From the NCBI GenBank assembly GCA_903881315.1, contig CAIRSR010000117.1, positions 1-64,000 on the forward strand: 64,000 nt of DNA, read 5' to 3'. A program made the translations under genes and the position numbers. Position 1 is the stretch's first letter, and each line of letters begins with the position of its first letter. The stretch is from an uncultured Thiotrichales bacterium (GTDB lineage Bacteria > Pseudomonadota > Gammaproteobacteria > CAIRSR01). Positions 8,348-64,000 of this stretch are shown one piece after another. The notes beneath the pieces were generated by a model that did not search any database, had not been told where the DNA came from, and saw only the letters and a list, made by a program, of their open reading frames with translations.

Positions 8348-10177
8348 ATGCCCCGTGTCCTGATTACCGATACCACCCTTCGCGACGCGCATCAGTCGAA
8401 GATTGCGACGCGCATGCGCACCGAGGATATGCTCCCCATCTGCCCAAAGCTCGACCAGGTCGGGTTTTGGTCACTAGAGGTGTGGGGTGGCGCGACATTC
8501 GACGCCTGCTTACGCTTCCTCAAAGAAGACCCTTGGGAGAGGCTGCGTAAGTTACGCAAAGCGCTCCCCAATACCCGCCTCCAGATGTTGCTGCGTGGTC
8601 AAAATCTGCTTGGCTACCGCCACTACTCTGATGATGTGGTGCGTGCCTTCGTCAGTCGCGCCGCCAACAACGGCATGGATATCTTCCGCATCTTTGATGC
8701 CCTGAACGACACCCGCAACCTCCGTGTATCGATAGAGGCAGTAAAAGCCACCGGTCGACACGCCCAAGGTGCCATCTCGTATACCACGAGCCCGGTACAT
8801 ACGGTGGCAGGCTTCGTCGCAATGGCCAAAGAACTCGAGGATATGGGCTGCGACTCGATCTGCATCAAGGACATGGCCGGTCTACTCACGCCAGAGGTCA
8901 CCTGTAAACTGGTTCCGGCGCTAACCGCCGCCGTTCGGCTACCGATCGCGCTACACTCCCACGCAACCTCTGGCCTCTCCGCCATCTGCCAATTCTTGGC
9001 CGCAGAACGCGGTTGCTACCATGTCGATACCGCCATCTCGGCGCTCAGCGACGGAGCAGCCCACCCAGCCACCGAGAGCATCGTCGCCGCCTTCCGCAAT
9101 ACGGCCTGGGATACTGGATTAGATCTAGCACTCCTCCAAGAGATTGGGTTCTACTTCTATTCCATTCGCAAGAAATACCACCAGTTCGAAAGCGAATTTA
9201 CTGGTCTTGACACGCGGGTGCAGGTCACCCAGGTGCCTGGGGGGATGATCTCGAATCTTTCTAACCAGCTTCGTGAACAGGGCGCCCTAGACCGGATCAA
9301 CGAGGTGCTCGCCGAGATCCCACGGGTACGTCAAGACCTCGGCTACCCACCCCTCGTAACCCCAACCTCCCAGATCGTCGGGACGCAGGCGCTCTTCAAC
9401 GTCCTGACCGGAGCGCGCTACAAGAGCATCACCAATGAGGTTAAGCTCTATCTGCAGGGTAAATATGGCCGAGCACCAGGCACGGTCAACCCCGAGGTAT
9501 GCCAACAGGCCATCGGCAACGAGCCTGTCATTGAATGTCGCCCAGCCGATCTCTTAAGTCCAGAGATGGATAATCTCCGCGCCCAGATCGAAGACACCGC
9601 CAAGAGCGAAGAAGACGTTCTGTCCTACGCGATGTTTCCCGACGTTGGCCGTAAGTTCCTGGAGGAGCGCAACACCGATACGCTAAAACCAGAACCCCTT
9701 GAGCCCCTTGCGCGTTGGAACAGTCCTAGCCCGGCACAACCACCTTCCGATGCGCCTGTGGATTTCCGCGTTACCTTTCACGGGGAGAGTTATCACATTA
9801 AGGTTACCGGCACGGGTCACAAGGCAAAAAGCCAACGTCCTTTTTACGTCACCCTCGACGGGATGCCGGAAGAGGTCTTGGTCGAGACGATTGAGGAGAT
9901 TGCACCAAACGGCGGTAATGCCGCTCGCACCAGCAACAAAAGCAAACGACCAAAAGCGTTCATGCCTGGCCATGTGACAACCTCTATGCCCGGCACAATC
10001 ATCGAGATCTTGGTAAAGGTCGGCCAAGAGGTAAAGGCCGGCACCCCCCTCCTCGTCGCCGAGGCAATGAAAATGGAAACCGAGATCAACTCCCACATTA
10101 GTGGTAAAGTCATCGCTATTCATGTGGCCAAGGGAGACAGCGTGGTGCCTGATGACGCGCTGATCGAGATTGGTTAA
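8348..10177 (+). CDS. pycB: Pyruvate carboxylase subunit B / oxaloacetate decarboxylase alpha-type
   Basis: The 609-residue protein joins an N-terminal carboxyltransferase TIM barrel (about residues 1-460; DTTLRDAHQS metal-site motif, GGMISNLSNQL) to a C-terminal biotinyl domain (about 535-609) with the EAMKMETE biotinylation motif. With pycA it forms a two-subunit pyruvate carboxylase supplying oxaloacetate. The alternative, a sodium-pumping oxaloacetate decarboxylase alpha chain, is less likely because no beta or gamma membrane subunit genes are nearby and a biotin carboxylase gene is. An AAAGG site precedes the ATG. Confidence 0.92.
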   Translation: MPRVLITDTTLRDAHQSKIATRMRTEDMLPICPKLDQVGFWSLEVWGGATFDACLRFLKEDPWERLRKLRKALPNTRLQMLLRGQNLLGYRHYSDDVVRAFVSRAANNGMDIFRIFDALNDTRNLRVSIEAVKATGRHAQGAISYTTSPVHTVAGFVAMAKELEDMGCDSICIKDMAGLLTPEVTCKLVPALTAAVRLPIALHSHATSGLSAICQFLAAERGCYHVDTAISALSDGAAHPATESIVAAFRNTAWDTGLDLALLQEIGFYFYSIRKKYHQFESEFTGLDTRVQVTQVPGGMISNLSNQLREQGALDRINEVLAEIPRVRQDLGYPPLVTPTSQIVGTQALFNVLTGARYKSITNEVKLYLQGKYGRAPGTVNPEVCQQAIGNEPVIECRPADLLSPEMDNLRAQIEDTAKSEEDVLSYAMFPDVGRKFLEERNTDTLKPEPLEPLARWNSPSPAQPPSDAPVDFRVTFHGESYHIKVTGTGHKAKSQRPFYVTLDGMPEEVLVETIEEIAPNGGNAARTSNKSKRPKAFMPGHVTTSMPGTIIEILVKVGQEVKAGTPLLVAEAMKMETEINSHISGKVIAIHVAKGDSVVPDDALIEIG

Positions 10178-16000: not shown

Positions 16001-16546
16001 ATGACCAAGGAACAACGGCTTTTGGTGATATTCGTCCTGGTCGTGATCAGCGGTGGACTTGGGATGTTCACATCTCACTACTTCCCTTGGAACCCATCCG
16101 CCCCACCACGCCCATCTTCACTAAATCAGTCATCGGATTTCAGTTTGCTCGATACCTCGGGGCAGATGCGTCACAGCAACGAGTGGCATGGGAAGGTGCT
16201 ATTACTTAATTTCTGGGCTCCCTGGTGCCCCCCCTGCCGGAAAGAGATACCCGGGTTTATCAGTCTTTACAAAAGCTATCGCGAACAAGGACTCATGATC
16301 GTGGGTGTCGCCCTCGACGAACCAGAAGAAGTCCGCCACTTCGTCAGTAACCTCCACATTGACTATCCGAACCTCATCGGAAATGATGCCGGTAGCGATT
16401 TGGCCGACCGCTTCGGCAACAATAGCGGTAGCCTGCCCTACACTGTGATCTTCGATCGCGGCGGGAAGCTGGTATATCGTCATCTTGGTGAGCTATCCGT
16501 CGCGGATGCCGAAGCGGTCATCCGTCCGCTCCTGACGCAGCATTGA
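16001..16546 (+). CDS. TlpA-like membrane-anchored thioredoxin
   Basis: This 181-residue protein has one N-terminal membrane anchor (residues 7-23) and a periplasmic thioredoxin fold with a WCPPC active site (Cys76 and Cys79), followed by LPYTVIFDRGGK containing the cis-proline. Such TlpA/ResA-type proteins reduce periplasmic disulfides, for instance of apocytochrome c or other clients. In pseudomonads the same position, between cutA and aroQ, carries dsbD (dipZ), the usual electron donor; no dsbD is here. Its reductant must therefore be encoded elsewhere. Confidence 0.9.
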   Translation: MTKEQRLLVIFVLVVISGGLGMFTSHYFPWNPSAPPRPSSLNQSSDFSLLDTSGQMRHSNEWHGKVLLLNFWAPWCPPCRKEIPGFISLYKSYREQGLMIVGVALDEPEEVRHFVSNLHIDYPNLIGNDAGSDLADRFGNNSGSLPYTVIFDRGGKLVYRHLGELSVADAEAVIRPLLTQH

Positions 16547-16635
16547 GAACAGGGATAGACAATACTCACCTGATTAGGCACAATTCTCCGCTGACACAAG
16601 CAAGCACGGTTCCACCAATCGGGGGAGGGTAGAGG

Positions 16636-17079
16636 TTGCGTCTGTTGGTCTTGCACGGCCCTAATCTGAATCTACTTGGCACCCGAGAACCCGATAAGTA
16701 TGGCCGAACCACGCTTGCCGAGATTGATGCGCGGCTTCAGCACATCGCGGGGGGTGCGGGTTGCCACCTAGAGAGCTTTCAAAGCAACGCTGAGCACGCC
16801 CTGATAGAGCGGGTTCACGCAGCAGAGAAAGACGGGGTTGACTTTATCATCATCAACCCAGCGGCCTATACCCATACCAGCGTTGCCTTACGTGATGCCT
16901 TGCTGGCCGTCTCGATACCATTTATTGAGGTACATCTGTCTAATGTTTACAAACGGGAGCCCTTCCGTCGCCATTCCTACTTTTCTGACATCGCCATTGG
17001 GGTCATTAGCGGGTTAGGGGCACAGGGCTATGAGTTGGCGCTTGCTGCAGTTCTGAAGCGTCCCGTCAGCGGCCCGTAA
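16636..17079 (+). CDS. aroQ: Type II 3-dehydroquinate dehydratase
   Basis: AroQ catalyses the third step of the shikimate pathway. The 147-residue protein shows the type II signature: [14 protein letters not shown] with the lid tyrosine in DKYGRTT just after it, [17 protein letters not shown] with the catalytic histidine region, and [18 protein letters not shown]. The start is a TTG at 16636 preceded by a strong GGAGGG site. The aroQ-accB-accC order is common in gammaproteobacteria. Confidence 0.96.
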
Positions 17080-54013: not shown

Positions 54014-54754
54014 TCAGGTCGTTTTGGCGACGACCGCGAGCCCGTGGATCACCAGGTCGGGCTCGTATTCGACCGTGCTGCTGAGCAGCGGCAGCACGGT
54101 TGCCGCATCCCCGCCCGTAAGCAGCACCGTAACCGCGCCAGAAAGCTCGACAGCAAGATGGGCAACAACGCGCTCAATGAGCGCGACAACGGCGTAGAGC
54201 GTCCCACCCACGACCGCGCTACCAGTATCACACCCAAGCAGCATCTCCTCAGCGCTTTTTGTGAAACGCACCCCCGCCGTACCCACCACGAGGGCGTCAC
54301 GCATCAACCGCAAGCCTGGGACAATCAGCCCCCCCAAATGCACATTGTCCGCAGTCAAGGCATCCAGCGTCACCGCCGTACCACAATCGACCACACACAG
54401 ATGCCCATGGGGCCGCCGCGCCGCGCCAATGAGGGCCGCCCAACGATCAGCGCCAAGACGACTAGGGTCACGGTAGGCGTTGCGAACCCCAAACGCTTGC
54501 GCCTCCGGGCAGAGAAACAGAACCTCTACCTGCCAGGCCACTCGCACCCAAGCGCACAATTCCTGCGCCAAAACCTCCCCGGCCACATTCGATGCAACCA
54601 CCCGAGTGGGTGACATTCCCTGCCAATGGATTGCGGCAACGCAGCCAATGCCCCCCTCGCGGTGAACACAAGAATCCGTAGGCGAAACAACCCCATCCTC
54701 GGCGGAAATAGCCCACTTTACCGCTGAGTTACCAATATCCAATAAGAGGATCAC
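54014..54754 (-). CDS. coaX: Type III pantothenate kinase
   Basis: CoaX phosphorylates pantothenate in coenzyme A synthesis. The 246-residue protein of the ASKHA fold has LLLDIGNSAVKWAI at the N-terminus, LGADRWAALIGAARR near residue 101, and VVDCGTAVTLDALTADNVHLGGLIVPGL near residues 119-147. The GTG at 54754 has an AGGAG site 6 bases upstream. In many proteobacteria it follows birA; birA is not here. Confidence 0.95.
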   Translation of the reverse strand: MILLLDIGNSAVKWAISAEDGVVSPTDSCVHREGGIGCVAAIHWQGMSPTRVVASNVAGEVLAQELCAWVRVAWQVEVLFLCPEAQAFGVRNAYRDPSRLGADRWAALIGAARRPHGHLCVVDCGTAVTLDALTADNVHLGGLIVPGLRLMRDALVVGTAGVRFTKSAEEMLLGCDTGSAVVGGTLYAVVALIERVVAHLAVELSGAVTVLLTGGDAATVLPLLSSTVEYEPDLVIHGLAVVAKTT

Positions 54755-54783
54755 GGGTAGCTCCTGTTGAAAAGGGTGCTGCG

Positions 54784-54843
54784 CTAATTGTATACAGGTT
54801 CAATGATATCCAACTTACCTTCGATATCCTTGATGCTGGTCAT
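54784..54843 (-). CDS. Small open frame upstream of coaX (19 residues)
   Basis: An ATG frame encoding MTSIKDIEGKLDIIEPVYN ends 29 bases before coaX. It has a GGGGGAG site 7 bases upstream and a TATAAT hexamer further up on the same strand (54895-54890). The peptide matches nothing I know. It could be a leader peptide or the remaining N-terminus of a lost gene. Confidence 0.4.
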   Translation of the reverse strand: MTSIKDIEGKLDIIEPVYN

Positions 54844-55464
54844 TTCTAAACTCCCCCTAAGATCCATGCTGCTGACCTACAGCCACGCTATTATACCGCT
54901 ATACCGCACATCCGATGAAACTATACATTTGGCCAGATCCGAATCCCTCCACCGCTAGCAATCACCTGGCGTAACGCAGTGCTTTACGGAGATATCACAA
55001 GGGTGATAGACTCCCCTTCGTTTATTGCGTATAATGTCCGCTTAGGAGAGAATTACTACCTGTGCATAATGGGGGCGGAGTCGTGTTTTGTCGTCTCTGT
55101 GTCGTGGGTAAGGATGGTTCCTCTCATGCGGCCTGTACACGCAAGTCTTGACGTGTGCTAAAGGAAGGCACTGTATGGGACATGACGCCACAAATTACCG
55201 ACCGCATTGGCGCGGCACATTCCGAATAGCGATCATAGCACCAACCAATGCCCTGATTACAAACCTTCACAGTTCAAAACATACCTGGATCAACCGAGAT
55301 AACCAACACTTCGTATCCGCCCAAGTTCCCATCAGCATCGCCAAGAATGGGCACAGCACTCACCACGAAGCCTACAACCCCGTAATAGTGTTGGCCTCTG
55401 CGCAGACTTCTCGCAAAAAATTGCTGGGCACTAGCAGTAGAACTGAGAGCAGAGAGAGCGACCA
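54844..55464. other. Gene-poor stretch between coaX and the helicase-nuclease
   Basis: About 620 bases with no clear gene. I see a consensus-like -10 (TATAAT, minus strand, 54890-54895), a good plus-strand promoter pair near 55007-55035, several GGA-containing short hairpins after it (AGGA-TGGT-TCCT at 55111-55122; GTGC-9-GCAC at 55155-55171), and on the minus strand, at 55274-55507, a decayed-looking frame. No tRNA or known small RNA was recognised. Confidence 0.6.
55007..55035 (+). promoter_or_regulatory. Good plus-strand promoter candidate
   Basis: TAGACT (55007-55012), 17-base spacer, perfect TATAAT (55030-55035). A transcript would start near 55042, about 420 bases before the helicase-nuclease ATG. 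It therefore drives either a long leader or a separate small RNA. Confidence 0.55.
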
Positions 55465-55507
55465 ATGAACCAACCGTCACAAGAAACTGGGGTTCTAGAA
55501 AACCCAT
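55274..55507 (-). pseudogene. Possible remnant of a sensory (Cache-type) protein
   Basis: A 77-codon minus-strand frame contains YYGVVGFVVSAVPILGDADGNLGGYEVLVISVDPG, which resembles the end of a Cache sensor domain of chemoreceptors (V.SAVPI.D.DG...GYEV). It lacks any start region or membrane helix and overlaps the first 43 bases of the helicase gene. The resemblance is by eye and the frame may be chance. Confidence 0.25.
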
Positions 55508-58500
55508 TGGAGACTAACCGACTTCGGCAACTCTATGAAAAGCTGCGCGAGCAGCTCTTGGATCTGACAAGACGCAATCCGCTACTCAACTATGGGTTAA
55601 AACCACGCTCCAAGCGTTTTCTGCAACTGGTTGACTGCGCTATAGAAAGCGTTTACGAGCGACTGATCGTCGATGTGGCGTCGCTCCCTATCGTCGCGCT
55701 CCCTGAACCAGACAGCGTACCGCCTGATGAACGCAGCCCGGAATTTGTGGCAGCCCTTGCATGGGCGAAGACCACCGATATTGAATACCTAAGCACCATC
55801 GAAGCATTGGAGGCATCAGATGATGCCAGTGAAACATCGTTTGAGAACACAGATCGCGCACTACGAGATCGGGTGCGCATCAAGCGTAACCTTCCACCAC
55901 GAGCTTCACGCAAAGAGATCGATAGGGCTGAACATGCCCGTTCGTTGGGTATCGACCCAAACCTTTCTCTCTGCGAAGAACCGCGTGAACAAGAGCAGCT
56001 CCAGACGCTGAAATATCCAGACGAACTGGTGTCCGTCATGGAGAAGATCGCGGACGATGCCCGCCTGGCGGAGCAAGAAACGGGGCTATCTACCCTGCAT
56101 CTCGCCTTTGGATTTTTGGAGTGGTACGAGAGCGAAAATTCCGACAAGAAGTCGCTCGCACCACTCTTGCTGTTGCCCGTTCGGATAGAGCGTTCCACGG
56201 CACACGGCAAACCCGCATACTCGATAGCAGCAAGTGAAAGTGGTGCAGAGGAAAATCTGAGCCTGCAAAAACGACTAGACAGAGATTTTTCGCGCAAGCT
56301 ACCTGACTTTGCAACAGACGGAGACAACGCGCCCACACCCATCGAAGACTACTTTAAGGGGGTAACGGATGCCATTGATGGTTTGAAGCGCTGGCGGATG
56401 CACCGCTGGCTCGTACTCGGCCACTTCTCGTTTGGTCGGTTTGCTATGTATGCCGATCTGGATGCACAGAATTGGGGAGAGCTGTCAGCGAATCCCCTGG
56501 TTGGGGCACTGCTACGGGGAACCGACCAGAAAGAGGATGCTGCACCCTTGCCCGGCATCCCCGATGATTACCAGATCGATGATCCAAAAATCGAGTCCAT
56601 TGCTCCGCTATTGATCCAAGATGCAGACGCCTCCCAACACAGTGCGCTGGTTGATGTCATGCAGGGTGAGAACTTGGTCATACAGGGCCCGCCCGGCACC
56701 GGCAAGAGTCAGACCATCACGAACATCATCGCCAATGCGCTGGCCAAAGGAAAGACTGTCCTGTTTCTTGCCGAAAAGCAGGCGGCGCTAGAGGTTGTGA
56801 AGCGCCGCCTTGATAACTCAGGGCTTGGTGAGTTTTGCTTGGAACTGCACTCGGACAAAGTCTCTCCAAAGAGCATTATCACAAGCCTAAGAGCACGGAA
56901 TGAGCGAGGATCTGGACAAGATCTACCGGTGGCAAATCAGCGCGGCGACACAGACTGGCTTTCGGCGCGCAATGCTCTAAACACCTACGTCAAGGCCCTT
57001 AACGAGCCTCGTCCCGACGGCGACTCAGCGTTCAAACTTCTCTGGAGCGCCATTTATGGACGTATGGTTTCCCCGGAACTTGCCAGCGAATTCAAGGGGG
57101 TGGAGCTTCCACTCCCTCTTCTGCAAGACCCAGGGCACATACGAACCCTCCGTGCGCAACTGGAAGACTTTAAGCATATTGCGCAAACGTACACAAAGGA
57201 CTGCGGTCATCATCCGGCACAGTCGCCCTGGAAGCAGCTACCCCTTGGGGAAATTCATCGGTACAAAATATCCGCACTGCAAGACGCGATTAACGCACTC
57301 AGGGCGTCACTGGAAGAGGGCCACGCACTCGTTGAGAACAACTCGAGTTACGGCATCACCAGCGAGGAAGACCTCTCGGCAGTAACAGACTTAAGTGCAA
57401 CACTCGGCGAGCCTCCGACACCTGAGGCCGTTGATCAAATCCCTCCCACCGACCTCCCAAGCCTCGAACGGGCGGTACGACTGCGAGCAGAACTAGGCAA
57501 CCTTGAGCATGAACTTAGCAGATTTCCTGCTCTGCAAGGATTGACCGTAGATCGGTTATCCATTGCCTCCTCTCTGCTAGAGACATCGGTCGGAGCGACA
57601 CTAGCCGCTAGTCACCCAGCCGCTGCCCTTGCGACTGTCGAAGAAATCGTCGCTGCTGTCCAGGATGTGGAACCGGCACTAACTAGGCTTGGCGTCACCT
57701 TCACTGCACCAGCGTCACAGGCAACAACAGCCGCCGTCTTGGTCAAGTCACTGTTGGCGATACCTCCGCAGTATCTGCGCTGGATGGTCGAGAACCCCGC
57801 CATCCGCAGAGCAGCTACCATAAACAAAACCACCCTCCGCACAGTGATGAACCACTGGCAAAAGCTGCTTAACGACGAAAACACCTGGGGCCAAAGAGTG
57901 ACGGGTTATCAGGGCAAGGTGCGTCCGTCACCCGCACAACTTAACACGTTTGCTGCAACCCTGAGAAAGACTGGGTTCGGCAAAATCTTCGCAACCCTGT
58001 CGGGCAGCCTCCATACCGCAAGAAATTACTGCACACAACTCGGCATTGAGCAATCCCCCGCAGAACTTGAGGCCCTCAGCGCCCATGTGCAGAACCTGCA
58101 AAGATTTGAGTCAGACATCGAGATGGCAGTAGCCCTCGGTACGGCGTGGAACGCACTTGCCACACCCTCCAAGGGAATTGACCAGGCGGCCACCGAGTGG
58201 AACCAAGCAGACATGGAGTGGAACGAGGCAGTCAAGGCGTGGGAAAGACTCTTTTCGACCGCAAGCACCCTTTCTCAGCAGGGTGACTTGCTCGTAGGAC
58301 GTATACTGAAACTCCCACTGATCGAAATACTCTGCGAATCATCGACACAGCTAAACCGTTTGGCTGGTCTTGACGCAACATCAAAGGCGCTCTTAAACGA
58401 GCAGCCGCTTGAAAAATGCCTCTCCGAGATGCGGCAGTGGATCGCCCTTTTGCAACAGTTTCTTTCTATCGATGCGGAAAAAAGGCTTTCACCAATTGGC

Positions 58501-61410
58501 GCATCGATTAAAGACATTTCAGAGATTCATCGACTAAGGCTACGGCTAGAAGAGACGCGCTCTAATCTCTCGCATTGTGCCTCCGAATCACGCGCTATCG
58601 CTTTGCAGCTTTTTGAGAATAACTTCTCGGCGAAAGAAATCACCACAGCCATTGCTTGGTGCGGTGCTGTGCGTGGCTCCAGGGTACCTGCGTTGATGAA
58701 AGACCACCTTCTTTCCGCAACGCTAACAACTAGCCACCAAGATTTGCGTGAGGTAAAAACACACTGGAACAATATCACTAAAACCCGCCCACCCTTAGTG
58801 AAGGCATTGACACCCTTTGGCACAGAGCAAATCGCAGCCCTTCCAACCAATGAACTGCTGGCGCTACTGCGCGAACTGCCCGACAACGGTGGGGGACTCG
58901 CTGAGTTCCTTAAGCTGCGCTCCCTGCGCAGTACCCTCGAACAAGAGGGTATGAAACCGTTCCTAGATGCGATCGACACGCACCTAATCGAAGCGCATCG
59001 CATCATGGGGATATTCACGATGCTGGTCACGACCAGACGTGCGGGACAAGCACGACAAGGAGAGGGCTTGGCTGACAGTCCTGATGGAACAACGTTGGAT
59101 CGACGCCGACAAACCTTCGCGGATCGCGATCGAGCGAAAATCAAAACCGATCGCGAGATAGTGCGAGCGCACTTGTTAAAGCGCACCCCACCCACCGGAT
59201 CGCAATCTGGGCCTCGCAATACCTGGACGAACATGAGACTCCTTCACAACGAGTTCACTAAGTCCAAACGATTTACTCCGGTTCGACAACTAGTTGCCAG
59301 GGCCGGAGCCGCCATACAGACGCTAACACCCTGTTTTATGATGTCACCACTCTCTCTTGCCAAGTTCGTTGCGCCGAGAAGCCTTCACTTTGATCTGCTG
59401 GTAATTGACGAGGCGTCACAGATGAAACCAGAAGACGCCCTTGGGGGAATGTTCCGCGCCACCCAGCTCGTAGTCGTTGGCGATACGAAGCAACTGCCAC
59501 CTACCGATTTCTTCAGTCGTAGCGGTGGCGAGGCAAACACCTCTAGCGATGAGGATGATGACGACATCGACGCAGAGTCGATCTTGGAGGCCTGCGAGCG
59601 CACGTTCGGAAAGCGGCGAATACTCAAATGGCACTACCGCAGTCGGTGCGAAAGTCTGATCGCCTTTTCTAACCGTGAGTTCTACGAAAACAAACTCATC
59701 ACCTTCCCCATGGCAAAACCAGGTGCCTTCTCGGTCGAGCATGTGCGGGTCAATGGAACCTACCGCACCCGCCAAAACCCCGACGAAGCCGCCGCAATTG
59801 CACGGGCAGCAATCGCGTTCATGCAGCATTTCGCCAATGAGCCTGAAGAAAGCTTGCCAACCTTAGGGATCGTTGCCATCAACACCGAGCAGCGCGATTT
59901 CATCAATGACGAACTAGCCAGGATGGGGAGCGGCGATAAACTTGTGGAACAGTATCGTCAGAAGGCGGAAGCGAAGAGTGAACCGCTGTTCATCAAGAAT
60001 CTAGAGAATGTCCAGGGGGACGAGCGCGATCACATCTTCATATCCATGACCTATGGTTGTAAGCACGGCGAGCCAGCCATGGCGCAACGCTTCGGCCCCA
60101 TCAATGGCAAACAAGGCCACCGCAGGCTAAACGTCTTGTTTACGCGCGCACGGGCTCGGATTGGCCTCTTCACCTCCTTTGGCTCGGAGGATGTACGACC
60201 CGCTGACGGCAGTTCAGAAGGCGTGACAGTATTAAAGCGCTACCTGGAGTACGCTGAAACGCGGGGACAGGCCTTCGGACGCCAAACTGGTCGCGAAGCA
60301 GATAGTGCTTTCGAGATCGCGGTCGCCAAACAACTGCGTACGAAGGGGTACCAGATCGATCTCCAAATCGGTGTTTCTGGCTATCGAATCGATCTGGGTA
60401 TCCGGCACCCGGATCGTCCCGAGCACTTTTTGGCAGGTGTCGAGTGCGATGGTGCGACTTACCACTCAAGCAAGAGTGCGCGGGACAGAGATCGACTGCG
60501 CGAGGAGATCCTGAAAAGCCTTGGCTGGCACATCGTCCGTGTGTGGTCTACTGATTGGTTCGACAACCCTGCGTTGGAGACCGAGAAGCTCGCACGAAAA
60601 TTGGAGGAACTACGCACCAAACCAACACCTCGTTCTAACTCCTATCCACCGTTGCATGGGTTGGTTCTCAATTGGGAAACTGAAAGTGCCCGTGACACGG
60701 ATACAACCACCTCAGCGCCTTCGAATGACACTGAGGTCAAACGTAAGGCTACCAATAACCGTGCGGAGAATAAACCAGGGACTCCCCAGTCACCTCCTTT
60801 GGTTCAGCCCCCACGAACTGCAGAAACACCGAAATCCAAACCGAAGGGCGTAGACATCCCATTGATAACCGCGCCCAGCGTTGTATCACCACTGTCGTCT
60901 GTCAGTCATGCAACCTACTCGATCGCCAATCCTACAGACATCGGACGTCCTGAACGCGATCGCTTCTTCGATCCCGACTATAAAGCCATACTCAAACGGA
61001 TGATCGCGCATGTAGTCAGGATAGAAGGCCCCATCTTTGAAAACCTGCTCGTCGATCGTATTGCGCGGGCGCATGGACTTATGCGTTCTGGGAATAAGAT
61101 CAGGGATCGGGTTATCAGCTTGCTTCGGGATGTGGATCGGGTGGACGAAAACGGACATAAAGTGATCTGGCCACAAGGAAAGAAGCCTGGAATTGTCCAT
61201 CCCTATCGGAAGGATCCGTCGGGAACGCGAAAGCACGACGACGTGCCTGCCGAGGAACTCGCGGCGATTGCCCTCCCGTTCGTTCAGCTACGGTTAGGCG
61301 ACGAAGAAATTTTGAGAAAGATGGCTGACGAGTTCTTACTCGGTCGGCTGCACAAACTCACCAGGCAACGATTTACCAAAGCGATTCAGATCGCCAAAGG
61401 TTCAGGATAG
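55465..61410 (+). CDS. Giant DUF4011-SF1 helicase-Vsr-like nuclease-DUF3320 protein
   Basis: This single protein has 1981 residues. Domains: DUF4011 near residues 17-300 (LLDLTRRNPLLNYG at the start); helicase Walker A QGPPGTGKSQT near 407-415; a long, partly coiled insert of about 900 residues; Walker B LLVIDEASQM near 1312-1320 and VVGDTKQLPPT near 1337; second RecA-like domain to about 1570 (WHYRSRC, NVLFTRARARIGLF); a nuclease domain of the Vsr/MTES_1575 type near 1615-1712 (YRIDLGIRH, AGVECDGATYHSS, IVRVWSTDWF); a low-complexity linker; DUF3320 near 1828-1981. Domain sets of this kind are linked to antiphage defence; I recall a single-gene system called Hhe with this architecture. It stands alone with a GAGAGAG site before its ATG. 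Confidence 0.88.
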   Translation: MNQPSQETGVLENPLETNRLRQLYEKLREQLLDLTRRNPLLNYGLKPRSKRFLQLVDCAIESVYERLIVDVASLPIVALPEPDSVPPDERSPEFVAALAWAKTTDIEYLSTIEALEASDDASETSFENTDRALRDRVRIKRNLPPRASRKEIDRAEHARSLGIDPNLSLCEEPREQEQLQTLKYPDELVSVMEKIADDARLAEQETGLSTLHLAFGFLEWYESENSDKKSLAPLLLLPVRIERSTAHGKPAYSIAASESGAEENLSLQKRLDRDFSRKLPDFATDGDNAPTPIEDYFKGVTDAIDGLKRWRMHRWLVLGHFSFGRFAMYADLDAQNWGELSANPLVGALLRGTDQKEDAAPLPGIPDDYQIDDPKIESIAPLLIQDADASQHSALVDVMQGENLVIQGPPGTGKSQTITNIIANALAKGKTVLFLAEKQAALEVVKRRLDNSGLGEFCLELHSDKVSPKSIITSLRARNERGSGQDLPVANQRGDTDWLSARNALNTYVKALNEPRPDGDSAFKLLWSAIYGRMVSPELASEFKGVELPLPLLQDPGHIRTLRAQLEDFKHIAQTYTKDCGHHPAQSPWKQLPLGEIHRYKISALQDAINALRASLEEGHALVENNSSYGITSEEDLSAVTDLSATLGEPPTPEAVDQIPPTDLPSLERAVRLRAELGNLEHELSRFPALQGLTVDRLSIASSLLETSVGATLAASHPAAALATVEEIVAAVQDVEPALTRLGVTFTAPASQATTAAVLVKSLLAIPPQYLRWMVENPAIRRAATINKTTLRTVMNHWQKLLNDENTWGQRVTGYQGKVRPSPAQLNTFAATLRKTGFGKIFATLSGSLHTARNYCTQLGIEQSPAELEALSAHVQNLQRFESDIEMAVALGTAWNALATPSKGIDQAATEWNQADMEWNEAVKAWERLFSTASTLSQQGDLLVGRILKLPLIEILCESSTQLNRLAGLDATSKALLNEQPLEKCLSEMRQWIALLQQFLSIDAEKRLSPIGASIKDISEIHRLRLRLEETRSNLSHCASESRAIALQLFENNFSAKEITTAIAWCGAVRGSRVPALMKDHLLSATLTTSHQDLREVKTHWNNITKTRPPLVKALTPFGTEQIAALPTNELLALLRELPDNGGGLAEFLKLRSLRSTLEQEGMKPFLDAIDTHLIEAHRIMGIFTMLVTTRRAGQARQGEGLADSPDGTTLDRRRQTFADRDRAKIKTDREIVRAHLLKRTPPTGSQSGPRNTWTNMRLLHNEFTKSKRFTPVRQLVARAGAAIQTLTPCFMMSPLSLAKFVAPRSLHFDLLVIDEASQMKPEDALGGMFRATQLVVVGDTKQLPPTDFFSRSGGEANTSSDEDDDDIDAESILEACERTFGKRRILKWHYRSRCESLIAFSNREFYENKLITFPMAKPGAFSVEHVRVNGTYRTRQNPDEAAAIARAAIAFMQHFANEPEESLPTLGIVAINTEQRDFINDELARMGSGDKLVEQYRQKAEAKSEPLFIKNLENVQGDERDHIFISMTYGCKHGEPAMAQRFGPINGKQGHRRLNVLFTRARARIGLFTSFGSEDVRPADGSSEGVTVLKRYLEYAETRGQAFGRQTGREADSAFEIAVAKQLRTKGYQIDLQIGVSGYRIDLGIRHPDRPEHFLAGVECDGATYHSSKSARDRDRLREEILKSLGWHIVRVWSTDWFDNPALETEKLARKLEELRTKPTPRSNSYPPLHGLVLNWETESARDTDTTTSAPSNDTEVKRKATNNRAENKPGTPQSPPLVQPPRTAETPKSKPKGVDIPLITAPSVVSPLSSVSHATYSIANPTDIGRPERDRFFDPDYKAILKRMIAHVVRIEGPIFENLLVDRIARAHGLMRSGNKIRDRVISLLRDVDRVDENGHKVIWPQGKKPGIVHPYRKDPSGTRKHDDVPAEELAAIALPFVQLRLGDEEILRKMADEFLLGRLHKLTRQRFTKAIQIAKGSG

Positions 61411-61572: not shown

Positions 61573-64000
61573 TCACCCCCCAGCACGACCAATCAATTGC
61601 GTCGCCTCTTCCACATCCACCGTGACCAACCGCGACACACCAGGCTCTTGGGTGGTGATACCAATCAGGTGATCGGCCATCTCCATGGTCTTCTTGTTGT
61701 GGGTGATAAAGATAAACTGCACCATCGAAGACATTTCCTGCACCATGTTACAGAAACGACCCACATTGGCCTCGTCCAGGGGCGCGTCCACCTCATCGAG
61801 TAGACAAACCGGCGAGGGGTTGATCTGAAAAATAGAGAAGACCAAAGCCACCGCAGTCAGCGCCTTCTCCCCACCAGAAAGTAAATGAATGGTGCTGTTC
61901 CGCTTGCCGGGTGGTCGCGCCATAATGGTCACACCCGTCTCTAGGAGTTCCTCTCCGGTTAGTTCTAACGACGCATGACCCCCACCGAAAAGACGCGGAA
62001 AGGTAGCCTTCAGGCCATCGTTTACCTGGTTAAAGGTCTCTTGGAAACGCTGGCGGGTCTCGCGATCGATGCGCCGAATCGCGCCCTCTAGGGTCTCTAC
62101 GGCGGTAGAGAGATCCGCATGCTGGGCTTCTAGGTATTGCGAGCGTTCGGCGGCGGCACTATGTTCCTCAATTGCCGCAAGATTGATTGCCCCAAGACGT
62201 TGGATCTGACGCGCCAATTGATCAAGCCGCTCCTGCCAGGCATCCTCGGTAATCTGCGCGGGCAGGGTGGGCAGAACCTCGGGCAGAAGAATCTCAAGCT
62301 CCGCCGCCTGTTCTTCAATCCCACGCGCCCGCACTACCACTTCTTGGTGGGCGATACGAGTCTGCGTCAGCTCCGCCCGTCGCTCCTCAACCACACGTTC
62401 GTTTTCAGTGCGGGCGCGTTCCAATTCACGCAAACGGTGATTGCTATCTTCTAGCTGGTGCCGTGCGCGGTTTAATTGTTCCTCTGCCTCCAAGCGCGTC
62501 GCCAGTCGCTCCTGTAGCTCCTCGGTAAAGCCATCGATCGGGGTCTCGGCGTTCTCTAACGCCTCCTGAAGCACCTCGACCTGCTCGGTCAAATCGTTCC
62601 TGCGCGTCTCTGCTCGCGCAAGACTCGCGTGCATCGCCTCTAGGCGACTACTGACGCTGCGCGCCTCTAGCGCCAAGCGATGGGCCTCGGTGCGGGCGAG
62701 GGCTGCCGCAGCGCGTGTCCTCTCGACCGCCGAGCGCACGTCGCTACGCGCCTGGGTCAGCGTCTCCTGTTCGGCATTGAGCGCGTCCACCTGCTCCAAT
62801 GCCTCATGCAGACGGTCACGCACCTCTGCCGAGCGCTCGGTGTTCTGTTGGATATGATCCGCCACCTCAGCAAGGTCGCGCTGCAATTGGGAAACACGCG
62901 CCTGGATCTGCTCCAAACGCGCCTGCTGCGAACCCAAACGGGTGCGCAGATCCGAATGAACCCGCGCCCCGTCATGAACCGCTGCCGCAGCACGCTCACG
63001 ATCATGCTCGAGTGCTGCCAACTGGGCCCGACCTTCCTCTAGTGCCACCGCCTGTGTTTCTACCTGTTCTTCGGCGGCCTCTAGTGAGATACGCAACTGA
63101 CGGATCTCTTGCTCACGCGCGAGCAGGCCAGTGTGGGCATCGGAATCACGCACCACCCGCAACCACTCTCGCCCCAACCACACACCATCGGGCGTTACCA
63201 CCGACTCCCCCACCGCCAGCGTATCGCGCAACGCCAAGGCGTGTGGCAACGAGGGCGCGGTATAGACGCCAGCGAGTAGCCCCGCCACCGACCACGGGGC
63301 ACGAACCTGATCCACCAGCCGTGGCGCGGTGCTCGCTGCGGGGGGAGGCAATCCTCCGGCAACCGCCGACCACAGACCAAGCCCCCCCTTGTGCAGATCG
63401 GCGGTCTTCTGTGCCACTACCGCGAGATCAGGGACACACACCGCCTCTAGGTGTGGGCCAAGCACCACCTCAACCGCACGCTCCCAGCCTTGAGCCACCT
63501 CTAGCGCCTCCGCAAAACGCGGGGCATGAGATAGACCATGGCGCACCAACCAATCCACCACAGCACCTTTTCCCTTACCAAGCGCCGCTTGCTGAAGGGT
63601 CTCCATGGAGGTGAGCCGACCACGCAAGTGCTGCAAGCGGTGGCGTATTTGATCAAGCTCGGTGCTGAGGTGATGATTCGTGTTGCGCTGGGTTGCAACC
63701 GCTTGATTCGCGTCAACGAGGGACGCAGCCAAGGACTCTTGATGGATGTCGTGGCTCTCGAGTAGTCCCTCCATGCGCTCGACCTCCGCTTCTAGCGGGG
63801 ACGGGTCGATGTTGGCCGCTTCTTTTTCAAGGCGCTGCCGACGCAAGACAAGCTCGCCTTGTTGTTGTTCGATGTAGGTGAGATGGGCGCGCTCTACCTG
63901 GGCCGCCTGAAGCGGCGCTTGACCCGCACGACTAAGCTCTTCCCAGCGCTCTTGCCACTCGGCCAGCGCCTCTTCCGCCACGGTCAGGTCAACCGAGGTC
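61573..64000 (-). CDS. smc: Chromosome segregation protein SMC (partial, N-terminus beyond the window)
   Basis: SMC proteins are dimeric ATPases that fold and segregate chromosomes. The visible 809 or so residues hold part of the first coiled coil, the hinge (GPHLEAVCVPDLAVVAQKTADLHKG and WSVAGLLAGVY, about 140-270 residues from the visible end), the second coiled coil, and the C-terminal head with the ABC signature LLSGGEKALTAVALVFSI and Walker B VCLLDEVDAPLDEANVGRF. About 360 N-terminal residues, including Walker A, lie beyond base 64000. The 162 bases between this gene and the convergent helicase-nuclease stop hold no visible terminator. Confidence 0.96.
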   Translation of the reverse strand, partial: TSVDLTVAEEALAEWQERWEELSRAGQAPLQAAQVERAHLTYIEQQQGELVLRRQRLEKEAANIDPSPLEAEVERMEGLLESHDIHQESLAASLVDANQAVATQRNTNHHLSTELDQIRHRLQHLRGRLTSMETLQQAALGKGKGAVVDWLVRHGLSHAPRFAEALEVAQGWERAVEVVLGPHLEAVCVPDLAVVAQKTADLHKGGLGLWSAVAGGLPPPAASTAPRLVDQVRAPWSVAGLLAGVYTAPSLPHALALRDTLAVGESVVTPDGVWLGREWLRVVRDSDAHTGLLAREQEIRQLRISLEAAEEQVETQAVALEEGRAQLAALEHDRERAAAAVHDGARVHSDLRTRLGSQQARLEQIQARVSQLQRDLAEVADHIQQNTERSAEVRDRLHEALEQVDALNAEQETLTQARSDVRSAVERTRAAAALARTEAHRLALEARSVSSRLEAMHASLARAETRRNDLTEQVEVLQEALENAETPIDGFTEELQERLATRLEAEEQLNRARHQLEDSNHRLRELERARTENERVVEERRAELTQTRIAHQEVVVRARGIEEQAAELEILLPEVLPTLPAQITEDAWQERLDQLARQIQRLGAINLAAIEEHSAAAERSQYLEAQHADLSTAVETLEGAIRRIDRETRQRFQETFNQVNDGLKATFPRLFGGGHASLELTGEELLETGVTIMARPPGKRNSTIHLLSGGEKALTAVALVFSIFQINPSPVCLLDEVDAPLDEANVGRFCNMVQEMSSMVQFIFITHNKKTMEMADHLIGITTQEPGVSRLVTVDVEEATQLIGRAGG

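Follow-up and report, generated by a model that had tools for sequence, protein, structure and literature searches.

In existing catalogues, Hhe-type proteins count as phage defence encoded by one gene; the original report of Hhe is that of Gao and colleagues in 2020. HheA is listed among the defence helicases of superfamilies 1 and 2 (SF1 and SF2; PMC12278908), and Gao_Hhe has been found only in Proteobacteria, by the models of the study concerned (PMC9090908). No paper on the working mechanism of Hhe-type proteins was found in the literature searched. Defence by a helicase joined to a nuclease is likewise described for Hna, Nhi and Hachiman, of which Hna and Nhi are single-gene (PMC13381803; PMC12904381); Hna differs in being an SF2 helicase with a PD-(D/E)XK nuclease (PMC13381803) and serves here as an analogy of mechanism only, no kinship being claimed. 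MTES_1575 of Microbacterium testaceum likewise carries an SF1 helicase, a Vsr restriction endonuclease and winged helix-turn-helix (HTH) domains overlapping DUF3320 in one chain, together with HEPN and transglutaminase domains (PMC3710099), neither of which is among the 25 Pfam families listed for the protein studied here. The window analysed is the 64,000-nucleotide stretch at positions 1 to 64,000 (forward strand) of contig CAIRSR010000117.1, from an uncultured Thiotrichales bacterium. It holds a giant helicase-nuclease gene whose product, judging from its sequence, is quite probably an antiphage effector of the Hhe/ProA/PDC-S37 kind that acts as a single protein, working as a motor, an insert arm and a nuclease. 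The gene is real and intact, probably defensive, and of an already known kind.

Domain architecture and family placement

The gene is one intact open reading frame (ORF) with an ATG start, encoding 1981 amino acids (aa). An earlier note, made from the letters of this DNA, had read in it a DUF4011 domain, a split SF1 helicase, a Vsr/MTES_1575 nuclease and DUF3320, and Pfam bears this out, all five domain matches exceeding their own gathering scores. The features are the following.

55465..61410, plus strand: giant helicase-nuclease gene (ORF listing, translation, Pfam)
55552..56277, plus strand: DUF4011 domain, residues 30-271 (Pfam, 113.6 bits)
56626..56817, plus strand: AAA_11, first part of RecA-like domain 1, residues 388-451 (Pfam, 60.7 bits)
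56686-56709, plus strand: Walker A, residues 408-415 (motif pattern and alignment)
56872..59259, plus strand: all-helical, fast-changing insert, residues 470-1265, predicted to be an antiparallel arm whose tip lies near residue 859
59407..59421, plus strand: Walker B, DEASQ, residues 1315-1319 (motif pattern and alignment)
59578..60162, plus strand: AAA_12, second RecA-like domain, residues 1372-1566 (Pfam, 44.1 bits)
60310..60603, plus strand: MTES_1575 Vsr-like nuclease, residues 1616-1713 (Pfam, 121.5 bits)
60442-60465, plus strand: nuclease motif ECDGATYH, within the MTES_1575 domain
60610..60864, plus strand: linker, residues 1716-1800, the site of a helical module in relatives, empty here
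60958..61107, plus strand: DUF3320, residues 1832-1881 (Pfam, 67.3 bits)

Every motor and nuclease residue that was checked is intact in the window protein. In an alignment of 39 rows of long relatives, the window protein included and ORFs below 1200 aa (from L025, L030 and L054) excluded, K414 is kept in all rows, D1315, Q1343, R1392, Q1517, R1561, D1643 and D1662 are each kept in 38, E1316 in 37, and E1660 and H1667 each in 36. A lack of active residues, which the earlier note had named as an argument for a housekeeping role, is thus not what is seen, these residues being present in 36 to 39 of the 39 rows. One relative, found on a phage record that comes from human faeces and is unverified (L099:3-6083), keeps Walker A and Walker B and has the Glu of ECDGxxYH changed to Ile and the His to Lys; from these changes, it is perhaps a nuclease-dead copy.

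An AlphaFold2 model of residues 385-1575 (predicted local distance difference test, pLDDT, 79.0; predicted template modelling score, pTM, 0.47) matched Dna2, SETX, UPF1, IGHMBP2 and Sen1 in Foldseek (E from 7e-8, probability 1.00), and its top row in VIA was Upf1 (2xzl; Z 17.6, root-mean-square deviation, rmsd, 9.9 over 324 residues). By the fold of this model, the motor is an SF1B helicase of the UPF1/Dna2 type.

The best PADLOC match of this single gene is PDC-S37 (1160.7 bits, E 0, scored without PADLOC's own coverage rules), in three stretches of which the best covers 987-1976, the profile having 1550 positions against the 1981 residues of the protein. Hhe comes second (732.8 bits), the annotated Klebsiella Hhe (L095) scoring 2444 on the same PADLOC family. 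NCBIfam ProA (NF058533) is matched over residues 17-1957 with 1145.8 bits against a cut-off of 1500; of the 1903 profile positions the first 352, the N-terminal part of ProA, are absent, the match beginning at 353. NCBIfam Hhe (NF042953) is matched with 1100.2 bits against a cut-off of 2000, and the match stops at position 1727 of 1797, leaving 1728-1797 unmatched. All four same-clade relatives tested also score below both cut-offs. No paper naming the PDC-S37 family, and no origin of the name ProA, was found in the literature searched. The earlier note had proposed a likely antiphage helicase-nuclease, and we retain this reading because of the family matches, to PDC-S37 and Hhe in PADLOC and to ProA and Hhe in NCBIfam, the same-clade relatives scoring likewise; the kind is one already known.

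A tree of 38 rows (quick method with Shimodaira-Hasegawa-like approximate likelihood ratio test, SH-aLRT, and no bootstrap; L101, a broken gene, omitted) places the window protein within a 12-row, mostly alphaproteobacterial clade (SH-aLRT 100, branch 0.74), as sister to the proteins of L016 and L017, from Rhodospirillales and Rhizobium bins. The annotated Klebsiella and Vibrio Hhe sit in another supported clade. The window protein shares with Hhe the DUF4011 domain, the split SF1 helicase with its long insert, the Vsr-like nuclease with its active residues and the want of a long N-terminal extension; it differs from Hhe by its separate clade and by having DUF3320 in place of the Hhe C-terminal module, and from ProA by its missing N-terminal part and its score below the cut-off. 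As it falls below both cut-offs and in a clade apart from annotated Hhe, we file it neither as Hhe nor as ProA: on these profile matches and this tree, it is an unnamed branch of the Hhe/ProA/PDC-S37 kind, lying between Hhe and DUF3320-type proteins. One class genome (G049; L110, L112 and L113) encodes three different long DUF4011 proteins, which the tree places in two distinct regions.

Distribution and genomic company of the relatives

The presence of the gene is patchy among relatives. The host genome has no second match to the window protein, and MTES_1575 is also matched there only once. The earlier note had held that equal presence in all relatives would argue for a housekeeping role; one same-genus and two same-family genomes show no match to the protein, DUF4011 not being found there either. 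Matches at E<=0.001 occur in 6 of the 37 genomes searched, and across 369 class genomes DUF4011 is found in 24 and the window protein is matched at E<=1e-50 in 17, its own genome being included in each count. Of 72,556 plasmid records 360 carry a relative, Klebsiella accounting for 244, and so does one of 50,697 phage records; the viral contigs scanned held no relative. On the Sphingomonas plasmid pC33 (L101:5620-11476) the gene is split across three annotated ORFs. In three hits on Klebsiella plasmids (H19-H21) the match runs across an annotated hhe, the transposase of ISVsa5 and another gene with an AAA domain, and hhe looks, from this annotation, interrupted by an insertion sequence.

The flanks of the relatives are rich in defence genes. 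Among 96 flanking ORFs, 57 PADLOC families are matched at E<=1e-30 (families and not genes, as several can match one protein), and the 25 flank families listed include PglX, PglZ and BrxC of BREX, DrmD and DrmMI of DISARM, type IIG and HerA. These ORFs, of at least 150 aa, were drawn from 153, dropping L029, the plasmid flanks (L094-L100) and three ORFs of L024 that double those of L018; in the flanks of L024 and L026, long plus-strand frames took the place of minus-strand ORFs that overlapped them. In the control, composed of the host contig and the G002 and G003 loci (85 ORFs kept of 92), the same threshold gave a single family (mad3, 3 members), a contrast that may be overstated because the control genomes differ from the flank genomes.

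Several relatives also adjoin particular genes by Pfam: a metallophosphatase with an AAA/SMC-type ATPase (SbcD/SbcC-like) at L022 and L100, PD-(D/E)XK with UvrD (AddB/AddA-like) at L024 and L026, and GmrSD at L021. At L017, a Phd/YefM antitoxin-like gene (2274-2480; 33.6 bits, cut-off 29.8) overlaps the helicase-nuclease start by 4 bases. On the conjugative Bradyrhizobium plasmid of L094, an upstream 71-aa gene (9707-9922) approaches a ribbon-helix-helix match (24.2 against a cut-off of 27), and an annotated DUF429 gene downstream (16189-16869) shares the last base of the helicase-nuclease gene. The upstream ORFs of L016, L024, L026 and the window gave no Pfam match. Since antitoxin-like genes stand upstream only at L017 and L094 among those tested, there is no constant partner. 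The earlier note's view that the protein works alone holds for the window locus only, where the flanks are housekeeping genes and a 106-aa upstream ORF looks non-coding.

The antiphage reading draws on the architecture, the intact active residues, the family placement, the patchy presence and the defence-rich flanks of the relatives, all of which are observed. Besides the possible overstatement of the flank contrast, several points weigh against it. Both curated NCBIfam cut-offs, for ProA and for Hhe, are missed, and the PDC families of PADLOC are candidates and not proven systems. The window locus lies outside any defence island, with housekeeping genes on its flanks, and, with three genomes sampled, little weight can be put on the gene's absence from the family. 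In P. aeruginosa, a large DUF4011 gene is a core flank of the defence hotspot cDHS1 in all isolates of the study (PMC10250203), possibly as a housekeeping or fixed member, so that a different role is conceivable for some proteins of the wider group. Function, trigger, substrate, polarity, sensing and activation are what we infer.

Some of these points would suit a host helicase-nuclease of the Dna2-like sort, associated with DNA repair or replication and not with defence. The resemblance of the helicase core to Dna2 and UPF1, the core DUF4011 gene of P. aeruginosa (PMC10250203) and the housekeeping surroundings in the window all agree with such a role; however, the gene is not found in any of the three family relatives and is rare in the class, its relatives occur on plasmids, and BREX, DISARM and restriction-like genes flank them, which makes a repair enzyme unlikely. 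A defence directed at plasmids or transformation instead of phage is conceivable in that a DNA-targeting helicase-nuclease could hit any foreign DNA, and sequence would not tell the class of target. Yet the named relatives are annotated as antiphage and many relatives are themselves plasmid-borne, and we regard this target as very unlikely.

The insert, the C-terminal modules and a possible mechanism

In the window protein 899 residues separate Walker A from Walker B, a length that the earlier note had taken as unusual. It is instead a family trait: in the 35 of 39 rows in which both motifs were found by pattern, the spacing is 842-1005 residues in 23, 612-734 in 11 and 1206 in one, and Hhe has 931 (annotated Klebsiella) and 934 (Vibrio) residues between the motifs. 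The insert changes fast. Its identity to L016 and L017 is 35 and 36%, that of the core being 77%, and mean identity within the clade is 17-35% over residues 551-1150 versus 55-85% over 1251-1700 and 301-450. The ratio of nonsynonymous to synonymous rates (dN/dS) over residues 601-1150 is 0.31, 0.24 and 0.37 in three pairs, against 0.016, 0.046 and 0.091 in the helicase of the same pairs, that is 4 to 19 times the helicase value, a fourth pair being undefined (dS saturated). Positive selection in the insert was looked for and not demonstrated, no dN/dS exceeding 1; what is seen is fast change.

In the model of residues 385-1575 the insert is nearly all helical, and a model of the insert alone (470-1265) has a pLDDT of 81.2 and a pTM of 0.45. 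For the insert, a Foldseek comparison with the PDB gave nothing at E<=0.001, coiled coils of condensin, MukB and Smc5/6 coming first at a probability of at most 0.28; the best VIA row (Smc5/6, Z 6.1, rmsd 21.1 over 307 residues) is under the tool's meaningful level for helical models, and BFVD gave one match at E<=0.001, with a TM of 0.07. Of the 50 VIA rows, 35 align at most 100 residues over a stretch exceeding twice that number, and in these the two ends of the alignment lie symmetrically around model residue 390 (mean 390.5, standard deviation 5.5), as expected of an antiparallel arm whose tip is close to protein residue 859 in a model of moderate confidence. The insert is predicted, with moderate confidence, to form an SMC-like antiparallel helical arm, these structural matches not showing kinship. 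An internal duplication within the insert is suggestive only: hhalign gave a probability of 61 and a score of 42.8, the highest score among 60 block shuffles being 33.1, and with other cuts the probability ranged from 0.4 to 68.8. Fast change and the predicted arm shape are compatible with a sensor role, of which they are no proof.

The C-terminal end varies by whole modules. In 9 of the 11 other clade members the nuclease is followed by a helical module some 80 residues long, which is missing from the window protein (z -0.3, versus 19.0 in Klebsiella Hhe); it coincides with the end of the Hhe profile, the matches of L017, L026 and L094 extending to 1797. Six of the 12 clade rows (L016, L017, L019, L022, L026, L094) have both module and DUF3320, three (L020, L021, L023) the module without DUF3320, two (L018, L024) neither, and the window protein alone DUF3320 without the module. 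Outside the clade, none of the 24 rows tested has both, 9 having DUF3320 only, 5 the module only and 10 neither (among them L103, cut by a contig end); three further rows were left out, the nuclease pattern not being found. By these sequence matches, the clade combines the Hhe-type C-terminal module with DUF3320. Since both sisters, L016 and L017, carry the module, its loss in the window lineage would be the simplest account.

SF1B helicases of the UPF1/Dna2 type translocate 5'-3', and because the motor has this fold in the model, the same direction may be expected of it by analogy. The motor would load onto foreign or replicating DNA, with the helical insert projecting as an arm from the first RecA-like domain. 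This arm could sense a phage protein or a DNA state, or restrain the nuclease; it may keep the enzyme inactive until such a protein or state frees it, in analogy with Hna, an autoinhibited helicase-nuclease stimulated by phage single-stranded DNA-binding protein (SSB; PMC13381803), and with the sensing of SSB or DNA ends that recurs among several DNA-targeting defence systems (PMC12904381). ATP-driven unwinding would pass strands to the C-terminal Vsr-like nuclease, and DUF3320, which overlaps a winged HTH (PMC3710099), would assist DNA binding.

We also entertain, as a tentative idea on the doubtful side, that the insert shared by Hhe/ProA-like proteins is an SMC-like antiparallel helical arm on the UPF1/Dna2-type motor and recognises phage by its fast-changing part, and that the branch is a natural Hhe/DUF3320 hybrid that swaps C-terminal DNA-binding modules while motor and nuclease stay fixed. 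If true, this would be a defence protein of one chain in which the parts for sensing and docking can be exchanged. Two features are worth following, the predicted arm and the swapping of modules at the C-terminus; if both are right, they can be probed directly by deleting the tip, exchanging arms of near relatives and swapping C-terminal modules.

The window locus and its leader

The gene stands between coaX and smc, as the earlier note had placed it, the neighbours being identified as Pan_kinase and SMC. The features around it, and one at another locus, are as follows.

54014-54754, minus strand: coaX (Pan_kinase), upstream neighbour
54755..55464, no strand: leader, from coaX to the gene, GC 49.6%
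55007-55035, plus strand: promoter-like site in the leader
55148..55468, plus strand: 106-aa ORF with a 4-base overlap with the gene start (ORF listing)
55274-55507, minus strand: 77-aa ORF
61573-63999, minus strand: smc, downstream neighbour, extending beyond the window edge
L051:10644-11819: LppC/LpoA gene

Beyond smc lie DUF4145, Sel1-repeat, chemotaxis, RelA/SpoT-like and RecN/SMC-like genes. The LppC/LpoA gene may hint that the host is a gammaproteobacterium; no 16S gene turned up when the genome was searched for one. A clean empty site is not demonstrable, because G001 and G003 have coaX and smc on different contigs and in different settings, and a search of G002 gave no smc. Nothing matching the leader DNA occurs in the family genomes G001-G003; the leader also has no Rfam match to an RNA element (E up to 1), and no tRNA that could be an integration site lies within the window. 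Flanking repeats were limited to short imperfect pairs, judged to be chance.

The gene has a GC content of 54.3% versus 55.7% for the window and a codon score of 0.011 versus 0.096-0.516 in 23 other genes, on which the score was itself trained and which are mostly minus-strand, the four other plus-strand genes being low too (0.096-0.247); the case for a foreign composition is weak. An imported gene that is now decayed or silent and serves no function would fit the odd leader, in which the plus-strand codon score is at most 0.01 in all frames and promoter-like sites are not commoner than in shuffles (1 found versus 4.0 expected), and the lost C-terminal module; a 5.9 kb open frame with its active residues kept makes it extremely improbable.

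The 106-aa ORF was rejected, weakly, as a gene and upstream partner, having no Pfam match (E up to 10) and a codon score of -0.31; it resembles the L017 Phd protein with a score of 30, which 25 of 1000 shuffles reached as well. The 77-aa ORF on the minus strand has no relative in the other three family genomes or on plasmids, and its comparison with solved structures gave nothing beyond chance level. It covers the sole leader stretch that is clearly positive in codon score (0.18-0.29) and reads on in frame beyond its stop, and is perhaps a remnant of another gene.

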